From positions 1 to 64,000 of the forward strand of contig MCFE01000021.1 in the NCBI GenBank assembly GCA_002104905.1: 64,000 nt of DNA. The letters run 5' to 3'. A program made the translations under genes and the position numbers. Of this stretch, positions 44,159 to 60,456 are shown one piece after another (positions within the stretch are counted from its first letter, which is position 1; each line of letters begins with the position of its first letter). The DNA comes from Basidiobolus meristosporus CBS 931.73. Taxonomy: Eukaryota > Basidiobolomycota > Basidiobolomycetes > Basidiobolales > Basidiobolaceae. Under the pieces are notes generated by a model. The model did no database searches, had not been told where the DNA came from, and was given only the letters and a program-made list of their open reading frames with translations.

Positions 44159-46064
44159 ATGAGTGAGGTAGAGGCCAGAAAAAAATATCTTTCGACTTTA
44201 CGTCAAGATGCCAAGGCTTTTAACCAGGAAATAGAGAGTATAGTCAGTTTATTGGGAACGGATTCAAAAGATTTATTGGAACAAATTTCGGTTAGTTTTA
44301 TGTGCTTGAAAAGGGATCGTTCACAATCTTATTTGATCCCATGTTTAGAAAGGACACAAACTTCTGCAATGCCCGTTTGATCATAACCATAAAGTTCCCA
44401 AGGAAACGTATTCTGCACATTTTAAAAAGTGTGAGTTAAGGGCTCTGGGAATCACCAGCGAAGATAATAAACCGGTAAGAAGGGGCTATATCGATGGTTA
44501 GTATAATAAACTAAGTGGTTTATGTTCTTCTTAGCTCCCTAGCTCTCTTGGCTTCTACGAAAAAGCACCAGCAGTAATATCTTTGATAGAAGGTTGGTTT
44601 CCTAGCTTGATATTTACCAACCATTTTCTACAAAGTATCTCACTTTTGACTCAAAGTACCGGTTGGAACGGATCTTGGAGATCAGGACTGCAAAGTGGAA
44701 AATCGGTATTTTGCAAGTTGTACCTCTCATGTAAATTGTACACTGACGCCTCTCTTTTATTTTCATGTAGCGAATCATCAACTAGACATTGGGATAAAAT
44801 TGATCTTGAGAATCTTGAAATAGAATCAACCGAAGATCTCCACGGCGATGTACTGTTAACAGAGAACGAAAACATCCTGGACAACATACTGAATTCGGAT
44901 AATATAGATGTACGATTGCGGTAAGTACTTCGTGGTATTATTCCTTTACCGCTAGTGCTTATGAATTATTTAAGAAAACTCAACAAATGGACACAAATCC
45001 CTCGGTTTTATGAAAAACTGAATATCGAAGAGTTAAATCCTATGAAAACCCGTGGTTGGCTTGTCAATAACTTGCCGCAAAACACACAGCTACGTAATTC
45101 AATCAGCCCAAGTTTCAATTCAGAAATGGAGCTTTCAGACTATATATATCGCCATTTGCTGCTACCTGCTAAAGGCATCGAAGAGTTCAAGAGACATGTA
45201 GAACCTTATTTCGGGCCAGGTAAGTTATAAGCAAGGCAGTCATCGATTCTGCCACGATGTTGACTTCGACGACTTTTCTCAGCATCACAGATGTTCACAT
45301 TAAAATTGTGGAAATATCTCATGTCTGAGTTGATTCTGCTAATGGTTCTTCCAGTCAATGATGCCATTCTTCCGGTAACGTGTTTACGGCCAGTTATTTG
45401 GCTGTGGGCCGATGACTAACTGTGTACTATAGACAAATCAACAGTCATCAATAGATGAGCATTCTGAACACTCGCAGTTGCCAAGTGAGATATCTATAGA
45501 ACCAGTAACAGATAACACCGGTGAAAATTTAGTTTATAACGTATGTATATCCGGCGTTTATAATTATAAGGAGAACCTAACCATTTTGCAGCTGCTTGAT
45601 CGCCAGCCTCGCCTACAGCCTGGTTCAGCTTTGGCTGTATCTCAGAGGCGCAAAAAATATGAGCACCTTATTCAAGCAAGTAGATATATTCGAGAACTTC
45701 ACGGACGCAACGATCACAACATCTATGACGGATTTGAAGAGGCTCTAGAAAGAGCGAAATTAATCAAAGGTTAGTTTTGCCTATATCCGCCTGCTATGGT
45801 ATGATTTAATCAACTTTATACCAGAGCAAAATCAGAAGAGGAAGTCGAAAGCTGACTTACTTGCGGAGCAAAGAGATTATAAAAGAAGAAGGAAATCGTA
45901 TCGCGCCAAGAATGTACGGATTACTCAAAGAACCCCCACTCAGGTATGAGCCTTAATTGAAGCGAGCCGACTAGAATATAGTACTCAATGCATTTAATCA
46001 TCATTAGATTCAGCGTGATTTAATTGCTGCGTATATGGAGGATTTTGAGTTATTGAACTCTTAA
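44159..46064 (+). CDS. U11/U12 snRNP 48-kDa protein (SNRNP48/U11-48K)
   Basis: Minor-spliceosome protein that recognises the 5' splice site of U12-type introns together with U11 snRNA. By my joins there are 11 exons and roughly 435-440 residues. The CHHC zinc finger is at residues ~48-72: LLQCPFDHNHKVPKETY then SAHFKKCELRALGI, with Cys, His, His and Cys correctly spaced. The C-terminal signature LLAEQRDYKRRRKSYRAKN is nearly identical to animal SNRNP48, followed by RDLIAAYMEDF. The middle (for example NKWTQIPRFYEKLN, ELSDYIYRHLLLPAKG, QMFTLKLWKYLMSE) is longer than in the ~339-residue human protein and nearer to the longer plant form. All of its own introns look U2-type. The TAA is at 46062-46064. 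Confidence 0.9.
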
Positions 46065-53207: not shown

Positions 53208-56200
53208 ATGAAAGTAGAAAAACATTCTGAACAATCAACTACGAATCCTAATTATTCCCCTATTCGCCCTACTGTGAATACCACCTTTCGCGCTGTTCCA
53301 ACGAACCCTAGCTTTGACTCTGTAAATATACATTTTTCAGCAGTAATGAGGTTATCAACCCTAACAGTTTGTATTTAGTCAGTGACAGGTTTCACTAGAG
53401 AAAGTATTGGCAGTCTGCAAAGCGATACTTGCGATTTCGAAGGAAGGTATACCAACCGTTTCAGCGAGACAGACACTATACGTTTAATCGATCATATGGA
53501 TGTTGAGGAAATTTCCCTCTCTGACAACATCGATTCTGGAAAGCATTCAAAAACATCACACACCCCATCCCGTTTATACTCCGTGGGCAAGGCTTTTCGT
53601 AGAGCCTCTACCCGTGTTATTGAGCTATCTACCACTTGTTTTGACAATCCAATACCTTCGCACGGCAACTCGGACCAAAAGCATGATCACAATAGCTTAG
53701 ACGATGTACCTATTCCGCAACAACATCGTCTCGGAGGTCGTTCCCTCTTCCTATTCGGGCCCAACAACCCGACAAGAATATATCTTGCAAGGTTGTTCAA
53801 CAGAAGGTAATTGCGATATTGATAGTAATGGAGCTTGGTATTTTCATTTACTAACTGCATGCACTTTCTAGATGGATGGGATATTTGATTACTCTATTAA
53901 TTGTCCTTAACTGGCTCCTACTCTGTGTCCAATACTGGGAACCTGGTGCTCGAGACTTCACTTTCGGCTTCAGTTGGACTGATTATCCGTTGTTAGTCAT
54001 ATTTATACTTTATACGTAAGCATCTTCTCAGCGAACACAATGCAATGACGTCCAAATCGTTAACGGCTTTTATGTAGCTTTGAAACGATTGCAAGAATCA
54101 TTGTGTCTGGGTTCATCATCAACCCACCCACGTCTCAACAGAGACAACCAAGAGTTGAAATTGGAAAAAAATCACCGTTTCTCGTAGTAGAGGTTCACTC
54201 TGAGATCGACTCGCTTTTCCCAGATAGGGCATACTTGCGACATAGTTTCCAGCGGATTGATTTTGTTGTCGTTGTGTCTTTCTGGGTCAACATGATATTG
54301 ATGCTGACTGGATACGGCCGGTTCACTGTGTTTAGTGCTTTGAGCGCACTTCGACCATTCAGACTTATATCGATGACCTCGGGATCTTGGGTATAAATTG
54401 ACAATGCCTAAACCAGCCGATATTCGGACTAACTTATTTTCCTTTGAAGACGATCTTAAGATCTCTCAAAAAGAGTGCGCCAGTCCTGGTTAATGTTTCG
54501 CTCTTCTTGCTATGCTTTTTCTTACTGTTTGGGTAATTAATTATGTTAGACGTTTTACCTTTACGCAAATGCTCACTGACATTGTATGTATACCAGTATC
54601 ATCGGCGTTATCTCATTCGAAGGGTCATTTGATCGACGATGCGTTTCTCAAGGTTGGTGTTCATTAACCATATGATATGCACTTCAATCCCATTAATATC
54701 ATCTCAATAGATTATCAGGAAAGCGACTATGCAAATTTAGAATCTTTTGTTACTGTTCCAGAGCGATACTGTGGACACTACAATGAAACCTCTAAAGGTT
54801 ATAGATGCCCGGCGAATTTTAACTGTGTAATGTGTTTCGTTATTTTCTTTGTAGGATATCCCAGCCATTTAACAGCATACTCTATAGGTGAATGTCGGTA
54901 ACCCTTTTGAAGGAACCCTCGGGTATGACAACATCTTTCAGACAGTTCCAATTTTATTTGGTATCACAGCTGGTATGTTAATGGCAACGCACTGGTTAGG
55001 AAGAGCTTGAGTGACAACACTAACCACCTCTTCAGCCCAAGGTTGGCTTAGCCTGATGTTTCAAACTATGGATGCGGAATACCCATTACCATCCGCCTTA
55101 TATTATATTATCGGAGTTGTTGTATTTAATTTTTGGCTGCTAAATCTATTCGTCGCGGTGATAACAGAAATGTTTGCCAAGATTCGCGAAGATACCAACC
55201 ACAGTGCTTTCACCTCCAGGTATGATAACCATTCTAGTGGATTCTGATTAATACTTATTTATCACGTTGTCCTACAGAGACAAGGCAGCAATTGTTCTGA
55301 ATGACGGTAATGATGAGTTAGATGAGCAGGGGAAGAAAAAGATTCCATCGAAACCAAACTTCTTGCAAAGAAATTTCGATGCTACCTATTATTTTTGGAT
55401 CTTGCTGGTTGCTGCTGATCTGGTTATCATGTGTGTTCGCTCGTATGATCCAGACGATGAAGATAATGTCTTGACACCCGACCCGACCATGAGTACGACT
55501 TTTCTTACCAACTCACTCATACATAACACTCTCCTCGATCATATGAAATAATTCGCAATTTCTATTAGTCCAGGGCGATTTCTTAACTGCCGAGCGTGTT
55601 TTTACATCATTATTCGCACTCGAGATCATCCTTCGTTACTTTGCCATTTTGAAGCCTGGACGGAGGTCTAAATTCTTTCACTCAAAGAGGAACAGACTGG
55701 ACTTGTTTTTGGCAGTTGTCACTTGCTTAATTCAGATCCCCCCTATACCTACAGTTACTTCTGGAATGGTATATCGGTATCTCACAGTATTCCAGGTAGC
55801 AAGATTCTACCGAGTTGTTATGGCAGTGCCTCGTCTTCGTAGATTAATTGTTCGTACATTTCGTATTCACTGAATTGCTTGAAGTATACTAACCATTCAC
55901 ATTTTTACAGACTCGTACTGTCGGAAACGTTATCGGTATGATGAACTTGTTCCTTTTCATTTTGATGTGCATTGGTGTCAGTGCAACTATGGTAGGTGGG
56001 CTGCATTCCATGACAAGATTACTCGTATTGAACAGGCCAATTATGTGTTAGGCGATGCAATTGTTTGGTGGCCAAATAGGATCCGAAGACGGCTTGGACA
56101 TGAATTTTGATAATTTCGCATCTAGCTTCCTGGCATTGTTTCAGGTACATTTGGAGTTAAGAGCTAGTTCACCAGCTAGATATTGATTTTCTTTGTTGGA

Positions 56201-59200
56201 TGTAGGTATTCTCGGGTGATAACTGGACCGATTTGCTGTACGGCTTAACCGGAAGCCAGCGTAAGCACAACATGGCGGTCTTTTCCTCAGTTTTTATTTT
56301 GTTGTTTTTCTGCTTTTCAAACTGTGAGGCATTTTCGTGTCGAATCTCGTTATCTACCTACAATTATTCATGCGTTCCTTTTTAGTCATCCTACTTAACA
56401 TGCTCGTTGCTGTGATCGTGGAGAATTTTGAAATGGACGAAGAAGAAAAACGCAAACTTCAGCTTGAGGAGACCATCAAAGGAATTGAAACTCGGCAAAA
56501 AGAAGGTCAGGCCGTTATCAGGTAAATTCAATGATTCGCAAGTCACGGCTGTAGAAGCATACTCAGGTCGCTTTTGATACAGTAAATGGAACCCATATCG
56601 ATTCTTAAAGCCCAGCCCGAAGGCCTTGGAGGTTGACAGTATTCCATCGAACCTTGTTCTACCCGTTCAGAAGCGGGCTGCTCGCGAATTTCTGCAAGAA
56701 TCAACCTCGAAAGTAGGTGCTCTTAAGCTGCGAAAGTGAAGATTTTTCGAAGCTAACCCGTAATTTTTCAGTCTATTGGAGCCCAACTCAACAGATCCAA
56801 ATCAAAGGGATTTACTTCCCGGGTTCGAAGGTTCCTGAAAATGGACTACGACGATGTAGAACTCGGGAATACAGTTCAAAGGGCTGAAACGAGGGACGAC
56901 AGATTTATAGATGAAGCAGCCGGCAGTAAAGGCCCCAGCATGGAGCAGCACAGCGAGCGCGAGGCAATTCTTAACGACTTCATGACCGCCCATCCAACTT
57001 ACGATACATCGTTGTTTATATTCAAGCGGAATCACCCTATTAGAAAGATCTGCAAGAAGTTAGTGGGAAATTCAGATCCCTCGATCGAGGGAGTGTCGTT
57101 ATCGCATTTCAAACTAAGCCACGCGTTTAACGGGTTCATTTTCGTGTGTGTTGTTGTGAGTGTCGTATTTGCTGCGATCAACACTCCATTGGCTCAACGA
57201 CAACGAATAATCGAAAAGTACGGAAGCCTAGACAATTATACTAGTAAACGCGAGGTGGACATCTTCTACATGATCGACATCATCGTCACTGCAGTGTTTA
57301 CCATCGAGTTTCTCATCCGTATCATTGCCGATGGATTTATGTTTACACCCGAGGCTTATTGGCGGAGTATATGGAATCGTGTGGATTTCTTGGTTTTGAT
57401 CACCCTGTATATTACCTTGGCAATCAACCCCCGGGATGCTACCGGAATTCCGAGAACACTGAGAGCGGCCAAGGGCTTCAGAGCATTAAGAATTGCTAGC
57501 TATTTCTCCGCAGTTCGAGAGGTGTTCTACGGCACCTTGTACTCAGGTTTCCCTCGAATCGTTGATGCAGCGCTACTTTCCCTTTGCTTCATCCTCCCAT
57601 TCTCGATCTACGGGCTAAATATCTTTGCTGGACTGATGTACAGCTGTAACGATGACAATGGAATTTCTAGCCGGGCCGCCTGCTCAGGTTTTTACCCCGA
57701 CAAGGATAATGGATTCTTGAAACCGCGCGTTTGGTCGAACCCGGATAACTTCAACTTCGACAACTTCAGATCGTCGCTTTTGGTTTTGTTTGAGATTGTA
57801 TCCAACGAAGGCTGGGTCGATGTAATGTTGACCACGATGAAAGTCAAGGGGTACAATCTTCAGCCCGAAGACAAAAATGCCTGGTATAATGCCATCTTTT
57901 TCATGATCTACAACATGGTTGGGGCAGTTTTCGTGTTGACCCTTTTTGTGGCGGTTATCATCGAGAACTTCAACACCCGTAATGGAACTGCATTCCTGAC
58001 CGCTGAGCAACGAAGATGGATTGATATGAAAAATCAGCTGAAGCAAATCAAACCATCTATTCGACCAGTGACTCCACCTGTCGACAGAGTTCGGAGGTGG
58101 TGTTACGAAATGGCTATCGAAAAGAATGGGTTTCTATCTAAATTTGTGATCGGGGTGACCATATTTGACGCCTTGCTTTTGGTAACGCAATATCATACTC
58201 AACCAGATGTCGTCGATACCGTTAAAGGTACGAATTGGTAAGCGTCATCTATAGAAGTCACCGGTATTAACATTGCCCTGTAGACATTCTCTTTGGATTA
58301 ATCTTTCTGTGTTATATGTTTGAGATCGTTGTGAAGTGCCTTGGACTTGGTGTTAGAACGGTATGGTGTGCACCATTAATGTCACATCAATGGACGAAGT
58401 GTTGATCTTCTACTTTGTAGGTACTAATGAATCCATGGAATGTGTTCGATATTGTCATTACCTTCGGTCTTGCTATCTCGTCCATTTCGCAGTTGGTAGA
58501 GAAGTTTGTGTTAGGTATAGCAAACGGATCTCGTCTGTCGTTGAGAATCTTCGTTACACTGGTGTTGTTTAAAGTAGTCCAGAAAATCGATAGTTTGCAT
58601 CAGCTCCTGAGAACAATGGCGTAAGTGGATTATTATTGTGAATGCAAAGCACCGGAGTAACCGATTTTTCGTCATTGCAGTGTCAGTTTGAGAACCATTG
58701 TTAATTTACTGGCCGTTTGGTTCTTGGTTTTTGTGATTTATGCCATCGCCTTCATGGAGATTTTTAGTTTGACAAAGATGGGCGAGAATGGAGGGGCTCG
58801 AGCAAATTTCCGGAACTTCTCCAACTCCATATTGAATCTATTGGGAATGTCCACCGGTGAAGGCTGGAACGATTTTATGCATGACTTTGTAACCCAAAGC
58901 CCTGAATGCGTAGCCAGCGACAGCTATTACTTGCAAACAGATTGTGGAAGTCCCGCTTGGGCCTATTTCTTATTCATCTCCTTCAACATCATCTCGATGT
59001 ACATCTTTGCCAACCTGTTCGTCGTCGTGGTCATGGATGGATTCTCATACTGCTATCAAATCGCGTCCTCATATTCTCTGATGAAGAGAGACGATATTAG
59101 AAAATATCCTTTGAGTTTTGCTCACAACCTATTGCTTTAGAATTGCCAATGTATATATCCTTAACAGGTGCTCACTTTCAAGAAGGCATGGGGCGAAGTA

Positions 59201-60456
59201 GATATTCATGGTAATGGTTATATATATCAGAAAGATATAGTCAAGCTATTCTCGGTAAGGGTATTTGCGAATTTGGTCTTCATTCGACCCTACTAATGCA
59301 TTGTCTAGAAACTGTCTGCACCATTTGATGTCAAGATATACCCCGATCAGTATTCTATACCAACATTACTTCGCGAATGTCGTGCTCCAGAGAATCTCGA
59401 CGTAGCCCCATCATTTTCATTTAGAAAAAGTTCGAAGAGAAACATTTATGAGCTTACTGATCAACGGCCAGAGGCAAAGCTTCCGGATTTCAACATATTG
59501 AACACTCGATTATCGGATTTGAATTCGACCGAGATACATGAAAGGAGAAGGATTTATAACTTGATATATCAGGTTAGGTGGCCAGTAGTGGGAGGCGGGA
59601 AATCCTTGACTAACATTGCCGCTACATTATGTATATAGGAAGCCATGGATCTAGGTGCAAATAATCGAAAGATTAGCTTTACTAAGATGTTGTTGCTCCT
59701 GTCCATCTACAAGCTCACTGATCCAGTGAAAAGTTTTCTGTATGATTTATTTTCCACCCACTTGCGTAATATGCTGCATGGTATTAATGAGTGTTTTTCA
59801 TTTAGTCCTACCGATTATATCAAGCGCAAAGAACGGATGGACCAAATTGTGGACAAGGTTCGCATGGATACACTTAGGGGCTTTTTGCTTATTGCGATCC
59901 AGAGAAAACGAATCCGTGAAATTCGAGCACAAAGCGATAGGCACGCAGAGTTCGAGCACCCCCAAACACCCGAAACACAAAGTAAACTGCATTCCGCTTG
60001 GATTTGCTGTGATGAATCTTCCTAACCCCTTCCTCAACTTAGATGCCCCTGATGCAATCGGGCCTGAGATTAGAATAGTTTCTGAAAGCTCCACAACAAG
60101 GCATCATCCAACCTCCACCTATACCCCAGAGAGACCAGCAGTACACGATATTTTCCCGCATTCCTCCGCATCGCCGTAAGTCTACTTCAGTAATCATAAT
60201 GCTAGGAAAACCCTAACCCGATTCTTCAAGTGGATATGTCGATGAAAGCGATGACAACTGTAGCGTTAGTAGCTTGAAAGACATGGATATTAGTCAAGCT
60301 GATGATATCCTGACCGACTTCAGAAGCAACCAATGGCATGGTAATGTAGTGTTTCTCTACCGCACTCGTTAAGCAAGTATTAACTCCAATTTAGATGCTC
60401 TGGTTGCGGAGACGCATGATCTTTACGAGAGCAGCACATCTGAAGAAGACGACTGA
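53208..60456 (+). CDS. CCH1: Cch1-type voltage-gated calcium channel alpha subunit
   Basis: Plasma-membrane calcium channel of the four-domain family, probably near 1,800 residues, in 27 exons by my reading. Each domain has S1-S6 helices and a pore loop. S4 sensors: RFTVFSALSALRPFRLI (I), YLTVFQVARFYRVVMAVPRL (II), PRTLRAAKGFRALRIASYF (III), SRLSLRIFVTLVLFKVVQKI (IV). Pore loops: AAQGW (I), FSGDNW (II), VSNEGW (III), STGEGW (IV), so the filter is Q/D/E/E where yeast Cch1 has N/D/E/E and animal Cav has E/E/E/E. The C-terminus has an EF-hand-like DIRNFKKAWGEVDIHGNGYI and an IQ-like basic region (LLIAIQRKRIREIRAQ). Intron 20 is U12-type AT-AC; the other 25 are GT-AG. Ends EEDD with TGA at 60454-60456. 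It works with Mid1 in fungi. Confidence 0.93.
59104..59175 (+). other. U12-type AT-AC intron in CCH1
   Basis: A 72-nt minor-class intron. The 5' splice site ATATCCTTT (59104-59112) is a perfect AT-AC U12 consensus. The branch region ATCCTTAAC (59157-59165) matches TTCCTTAAC at 8 of 9 positions. The 3' end CTCAC|T (AC at 59174-59175) lies 11 nt after the branch A, within the usual short U12 distance. Splicing joins AGA AA + T TTC AAG and yields RDDIRNFKKAWGEVD, the conserved continuation after the last S6 helix. Left unspliced, the frame hits TAG at 59138-59140. No GT donor upstream gives the right phase for the nearby AACAG. Confidence 0.92.

Follow-up and report, generated by a model that had tools for sequence, protein, structure and literature searches.

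A Predicted U12-Type AT-AC Intron in the CCH1-Type Calcium-Channel Gene of Basidiobolus meristosporus and Its Probable Age within the Fungi

Introduction

Introns of the minor (U12-type) class have a 5' splice site that is bound by the U11 snRNP and then by U6atac, and a branch site, usually about 10–16 nt from the 3' end, that is bound by U12. In the textbook form of the pairing between U12 and the branch site, the branch A is bulged.

Among fungi, the highest density of minor introns so far belongs to Basidiobolus meristosporus, with 249 of them according to the available part of the survey by Larue and Roy (2023, PMC10639083), which in the same part recognizes no convincing minor introns in Ascomycota and Basidiomycota. 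The accessible portions of two papers also report such introns from Rhizophagus, Rhizopus and Phycomyces (PMC10639083, PMC2846911), the few in Rhizopus and Phycomyces having been found earlier (PMC2846911). Outside the fungi, the described systems closest to the one considered here are the minor introns of animal sodium- and calcium-channel (Nav/Cav) genes, whose positions are given, in the excerpts at hand, for only some of these genes. In rat Cacna1c they are introns 2 and 13 of 44 (PMC8767276), a table comparing fly and human places those of calcium-channel genes at 3 of 31 and 1 of 23 (PMC2831892), and Nav and Cav have one site in common, which lies in S1 of domain I or at the N-terminus (PMC6259924, PMC3634016). 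Animal channels also provide introns of the type of SCN4A intron 21, which have AT and AC ends and are removed, as stated in the part of PMC2831892 available, by the major spliceosome.

This study concerns a window of 64,000 nt, positions 1 to 64,000 of the forward strand of contig MCFE01000021.1, from the genome of B. meristosporus CBS 931.73 (GCA_002104905.1). A first-pass annotation of the window, made from its letters, had read positions 59104–59175 as an AT-AC intron of the U12 type, located in the gene of a fungal calcium channel, and had raised the idea of a very old intron class retained in the gene family in which animals also keep minor introns. The first part of that interpretation stands; the second is not supported, the animal calcium-channel introns whose positions are given being in a different place. 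No report of this intron or of its conservation in CCH1 was found among the matches listed from the open-access literature (most subscription papers lie outside it), and its likely deep age within the fungi, along with the traces at the same codon in CCH1-like models, is apparently new.

Results

The Host Gene

The intron lies within the following gene:

53208..60456, + strand: CCH1-type four-domain calcium-channel gene (manual model of 1885 aa, with 26 introns and no internal stop)

The gene model was set by hand from splice motifs and contains 25 GT-AG introns of 54–76 nt and one AT-AC intron. A home-made gene finder relying on a coding score was also tried and rejected, its scoring being too weak: it produced a nonsensical model of 991 codons and 43 introns and passed over the AT-AC intron even when this was offered to it.

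The public model of the gene is P0001 (K493DRAFT_333364 of B. meristosporus CBS 931.73). It has four Ion_trans stretches, and the gene is of the CCH1 type both by its four ion-transport domains and by its best relatives, which are named CCH1 or calcium channel. P0001 is the same as the manual model at every residue, save for 22 extra residues that are the translation of window intron 23, and because the two models match at the AT-AC junction, that junction is already in the public annotation. The sequence RDDIRNFKKAW runs across it in both P0001 and P0002 (B. ranarum). The AT-AC intron sits after domain IV, within the C-terminal EF-hand.

Three of the other introns may be mentioned for their own sake. 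Intron 23 (59740–59805) is coding in P0001 and skipped in B. ranarum P0002; that P0001 keeps it is probably an annotation error or else a retained intron. Intron 11 (55850–55910) combines a TACTAAC branch with an unusual donor, GTTCGT, and its junction is identical in the public model. Intron 2 (53807–53871), a GT-AG intron of the U2-type, is located just before domain I S1, near the reported shared animal U12 intron.

Signals and Reading Frame of the Intron

The intron and its surroundings are composed as follows:

58681..59103, + strand: upstream exon, encoding the end of domain IV, S6 and the start of the EF-hand, and ending ...RDDIR + AA
59104..59175, + strand: U12-type AT-AC intron of 72 nt in phase 2, number 20 of the 26 in the CCH1-type gene, with the identical junction in public model P0001
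59104..59112, + strand: 5' splice site ATATCCTTT, 9/9 relative to the U12 consensus RTATCCTTT
59157..59165, + strand: branch site ATCCTTAAC, 8/9 relative to TTCCTTRAC, with the branch A at 59164
59174..59175, + strand: 3' terminal AC, from the sequence and the frame search
59176..59254, + strand: downstream exon, FKKAWGEVDIHGNGYIYQKDIVKLFS

The perfect U12 5' splice site, the branch site 11 nt from the 3' end and the final AC claimed by the first-pass annotation are thus all in place, the 11 nt being counted from the branch A to the last base of the intron. So is the logic of the reading frame on which it had relied: excision of the 72 nt gives KRDDIRNFKKAWGEVDIH and restores the conserved frame, and an in-frame TAG is met if they are kept in.

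The same annotation had asserted that no GT-AG pair restores the phase. When donors and acceptors lying between coding anchors at 59084 and 59185 were paired, for introns of at least 25 nt, this was borne out, as no GT-AG pair gave an open product in phase. Three GC-AG pairs between the anchors are open and in phase, but they add or delete residues at a conserved place. Two other AT-AC pairs and three AT-AG pairs are also open, all of them lacking a U12 5' site.

An in-frame stop inside 59104–59175 is also what one might see if the stretch were no intron at all but the result of an assembly error, an insertion, or an alternative segment retained in a decaying gene. Against this, the full model remains open over 1885 aa, the public models from both B. 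meristosporus (P0001) and B. ranarum (P0002) skip the stretch, and the same element recurs with a different interior in two paralogue copies (described below). I regard the chance that it is not an intron as close to negligible.

The other 25 introns of the gene provide a comparison. The best match to RTATCCTTT at any of their 5' ends is 7/9. Two of them reach 8/9 for the branch motif, but there the motif lies 29 and 5 nt from the end and the 5' sites score 3/9 and 5/9. Counting both strands, the composite U12 motif is matched once in the window, and 300 first-order Markov surrogates of the window together yielded a single match. Predicted pairing of the branch region with U12 gives a duplex of eight contiguous pairs (UAUCCUUA with U12 UAAGGAUA), with no bulged branch A. 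When duplex energies are calculated for single snRNAs, the intron ranks 2, 2 and 3 of 26 for U12, U6atac and U11, values that do not set it apart and that I therefore do not take as proof.

Minor-Spliceosome Components in the Genome

Matches to the four minor snRNAs were found in the genome, each spanning the full model. U11 appears at 76.8 bits in two identical places (Rfam cut-off 39) and U6atac once at 63.2 bits (cut-off 33). U12 and U4atac each have one match, at 46.9 bits (E 1e-6) and 43.4 bits (E 1e-4), both under the Rfam cut-off of 53, so that the case for these two is carried by the E-values and the motifs. The pairing motifs are in place: GUAAGGA in U12, AAGGA in U6atac and AAAAAGGG in U11.

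The minor-spliceosome proteins searched were PDCD7, U11-48K, the 25K type and SCNM1, and each gave one match: PDCD7/59K at 26.3 bits, or 32.5 with its neighbours (cut-off 27), the U11-48K finger at 30 bits (cut-off 21.1), the U11/U12-25K type at 34.9 bits (cut-off 22.8) and the SCNM1 finger at 44.4 bits (cut-off 27). In 14 control genomes, no match was obtained for U12, U6atac, U4atac, PDCD7, the 25K type or SCNM1. The U11-48K finger (PF05253) was matched in one of the 14 and U11 in one, below the cut-off at a lax E-value.

The gene for the U11-48K homologue is itself in the window:

44159..46062, + strand: U11-48K (SNRNP48) homologue, with its CHHC finger at 44361-44435 (modelled to 45219, the end read by eye from the raw sequence)

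The best match of the translated start of this gene is human U11/U12 48K (8r7n_F, E 5.8e-8). The second PDB match is GTSF1, and the CHHC finger thus occurs also outside U11-48K. The gene precedes the channel gene by about 7 kb and contains the sole PF05253 match listed in the genome; its linkage to the channel gene is probably due to chance.

Taken from all of these sources, the U12-type 5' site, the branch site, the snRNA genes, the minor-spliceosome proteins and the restoration of the frame are all found. The stretch 59104–59175 is almost certainly a minor-class (U12-type) AT-AC spliceosomal intron of the B. meristosporus CCH1 calcium-channel gene, as judged from sequence, and it would be spliced, presumably by the minor spliceosome.

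U12-Type Motifs across the Genome

In order to place the intron within its genome, 89 Mb were scanned with the pattern RTATCCTTT-N25..55-CCTTRAC-N6..14-AC/AG. The pattern is matched 128 times (64 forward and 64 reverse), counting some 5' sites repeatedly, as several 3' ends can fit the same site; the reversed pattern, used as a control, gave no match on either strand. The choice of 3' end was examined at the 27 distinct 5' sites contained in 30 fetched loci, with the end picked by the open frame alone. Sites starting with A were paired with AC in 13 of 16 cases, and of those starting with G, 8 of 11 were paired with AG. Taken over both sides, the open stretch has a median of 41 codons when joined and 20 when not, a comparison made without a matched control and leaning towards joining, because the joined value comes from whichever of several ends was best. 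At least one of the 27 sites (L032), whose frame is open even when unjoined, may match by chance. All the sequence tests made class the channel intron as U12-type, and for B. meristosporus it is an ordinary one.

Paralogues in Basidiobolus

The genome contains further copies of the channel gene. Two of them, C36 and C597, are near-identical, with 2 differences in an intron of 71 nt, and have this intron at the same codon and in the same phase as in the window. ATATCCTTT, TCCTTGAC and the final AC are kept. The interior of the C36 intron aligns with that of the window intron at a score reached by 164 of 300 shuffles, whereas the flanking exons are identical at 321 of 423 and 62 of 79 positions. 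With the interior diverged and the exons alike, the splicing signals are what was kept. The C36 intron also permits open GT-AG joins, at the cost of conserved residues, as well as an open join at another AC 3 nt upstream. P0003, the public model of that copy, is wrong here, reading into the intron as RDDIR-KYPFSVTG.

These results bear on the possibility that the stretch is removed by the major spliceosome, either by a GC-AG or GT-AG detour or as an AT-AC intron of the U2-type. The three open GC-AG pairs in the window and the open GT-AG pairs in the paralogue allow for detours, and some AT-AC introns do need the major spliceosome, according to the available part of PMC2831892. The detours, however, add or remove residues where most fungal models are intact, the GC-AG donor, GCTCAC, is far from a U2 donor, and the 5' and branch sites are of the U12-type and have been kept in the paralogue despite its diverged interior. 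Removal by the major spliceosome is accordingly extremely unlikely.

The divergent paralogues C159 and C815 (loci L011 and L012) are contiguous and intronless at this point. They represent a second, divergent channel type in Basidiobolus, also of four domains, which has long open frames and lacks this intron. Several loci occur as near-identical pairs (L009/L010, that is, C36 and C597; C1/C608; C165/C680; C260/C625), which suggests that the assembly contains both haplotypes or that the pairs are recent duplicates.

The Same Codon in Other Fungi

To look for the intron elsewhere, I made use of a set of CCH1-like proteins that combines all 84 matches of one search with the 120 best of 264 from a second and the 120 best of 181 from a third, amounting to 284 distinct proteins and 565,838 residues. 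When an intron beginning R-TATCCTTT follows a phase-2 AA or CA, its translation reads K- or Q-YPF, so that a model that fails to remove it may betray its presence. The word R[KQ]YP[FL] occurs seven times in the 284 listed proteins, and all seven occurrences are at this codon. If any residue is accepted after R, the word occurs ten times in the same proteins, the extra three being elsewhere in the proteins. The seven read-throughs are in P0003, in five Mucorales (Zychaea, Choanephora, Apophysomyces, Halteromyces and Mycotypha) and in one member of Glomeromycotina (Funneliformis). Other models from Mucorales and Glomeromycotina are cut or misjoined near this codon, for example as FSL-KIWAEFD in Phycomyces.

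The condition of the 284 listed models at this codon, by taxon group, is:

Mucoromycotina: 29 proteins, with 17 intact, 5 read-through and 7 aberrant
Glomeromycotina: 16 proteins, with 6 intact, 1 read-through and 9 aberrant
Basidiobolus type 1: 4 proteins, with 2 intact, 1 read-through and 1 aberrant
Basidiobolus type 2: 2 of 2 flagged, contiguous by eye
Entomophthora: 4 proteins, with 3 intact and 1 flagged but contiguous by eye
Mortierellomycotina: 45 of 46 intact, the other one truncated
Dikarya: 141 of 141 intact
Metazoa: 11 of 11 intact
Proteins without an assigned group: 31, with 27 intact, 2 aberrant and 2 without a probe match

An aberrant model is one with a deletion or shift at or around this codon, and an intact model may come either from a correctly spliced gene or from an intronless one. 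Groups were assigned from names, and the counts could shift with proteins beyond the 284. Beyond the three clades with read-throughs, the regular expression also flags P0066 (truncated), P0084 (distant), P0173 and P0195, together with two type-2 proteins of Basidiobolus, P0191 and P0199; P0173, P0195, P0191 and P0199 are contiguous by eye and were left in the counts as flagged. P0076 and P0083 are the two named as having no probe match. In P0004, P0050, P0059, P0087, P0107 and P0137 the damage starts upstream, and these are therefore weaker traces than the seven read-throughs.

In the clades that would keep the intron, 24 of the 49 models examined are faulty at this codon or close to it, as against 1 of 108 (Fisher 1e-13), and read-throughs by themselves 7 of 49 as against 0 of 108 (Fisher 2e-4), values that are only indicative because they come from the first 170 proteins only and from related sequences. 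Protein models do not distinguish an intron that begins with AT from one that begins with GT (AAA and AAG both encode K), and they show no branch site.

Since read-throughs are found at the identical codon in Mucorales and Glomeromycotina, the intron at this codon probably predates the split between Zoopagomycota and Mucoromycota, so far as protein models can tell. Dikarya would then have lost it, as would the type-2 channel of Basidiobolus (unless it was never there) and, probably, Mortierellomycotina.

The traces in Mucorales and Glomeromycotina might instead reflect independent gains, or chance, rather than common descent. They were seen in protein models, and descent from one ancestral intron needs extra losses, given the 45 of 46 intact models in Mortierellomycotina and the contiguous type-2 channels of Basidiobolus. 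Yet R[KQ]YP[FL] falls on this one codon at each of its occurrences in more than half a million residues, one of the seven read-throughs is the C36 paralogue, where the intron is seen in DNA, and minor introns have been reported from Rhizophagus, Rhizopus and Phycomyces in the portions available of PMC10639083 and PMC2846911. Independent gain or chance thus seems a rather unlikely explanation, and I continue with common descent.

Discussion

The Intron Compared with Known Systems

The intron has no anatomical difference from other U12-type AT-AC introns. It resembles them in its 5' site ATATCCTTT, in its branch motif TCCTTAAC 11 nt from the end, in its AC end and in the presence of matches to minor snRNA genes; at 72 nt, it is short, like the gene's other introns (54–76 nt). 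The species is the same one in which, by the part of Larue and Roy (2023, PMC10639083) available, 249 minor introns have been reported. It shares its AT and AC ends with introns of the SCN4A intron 21 type but, unlike these as they are described in the accessible part of PMC2831892, it bears full U12 signals at both the 5' site and the branch.

If the intron is handled in the way usual for its class, a spliceosome containing U11, U12, U4atac, U6atac and U5 would remove the 72 nt, joining the codon for N in RDDIR-N-FKKAW. Were the intron retained, translation would stop inside it, ahead of the C-terminal EF-hand.

The relationship to animal channels is one of gene superfamily and intron class (PMC6259924, PMC8767276, PMC2831892, PMC3634016, each in the portion available). 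That animal channel genes keep minor introns, as three of these sources report in those portions (PMC6259924, PMC8767276, PMC2831892), speaks for homology with an intron of the Nav/Cav genes. The animal introns whose places can be read, which come from part of the animal channel genes, occupy S1 of domain I or other positions within the gene's first third, in contrast to intron 20 of 26 in the C-terminal EF-hand of Basidiobolus. Because it comes after domain IV, the fungal intron is not one of the animal minor introns placed in those papers, and the first-pass idea of a link to the animal channel introns is not supported by these positions. Judged from the places that can be read, homology with an animal Nav/Cav minor intron is very unlikely.

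History and Significance

The history that I favor, and consider quite probable though well short of certain, is that of a single ancestral minor intron, present in CCH1 since before the split between Zoopagomycota and Mucoromycota, lost in Dikarya and, independently, probably in Mortierellomycotina, and hidden in the databases by faulty models (24 of 49). Under that history, retention would truncate the channel before the EF-hand, and slow splicing may limit the amount of channel.

The Basidiobolus intron adds a well-supported case to the minor introns of fungi. The word R[KQ]YPF in protein models offers a simple signature by which read-through of a U12 5' site in this phase can be found, and the results suggest misjoining at the EF-hand in many CCH1 models from Mucorales and Glomeromycotina. 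If the shared position across fungi is confirmed in DNA, this would be one intron that can be traced through keeping, through loss on its own (perhaps in Mortierellomycotina and the type-2 channels) and through loss together with the minor spliceosome, in Dikarya.
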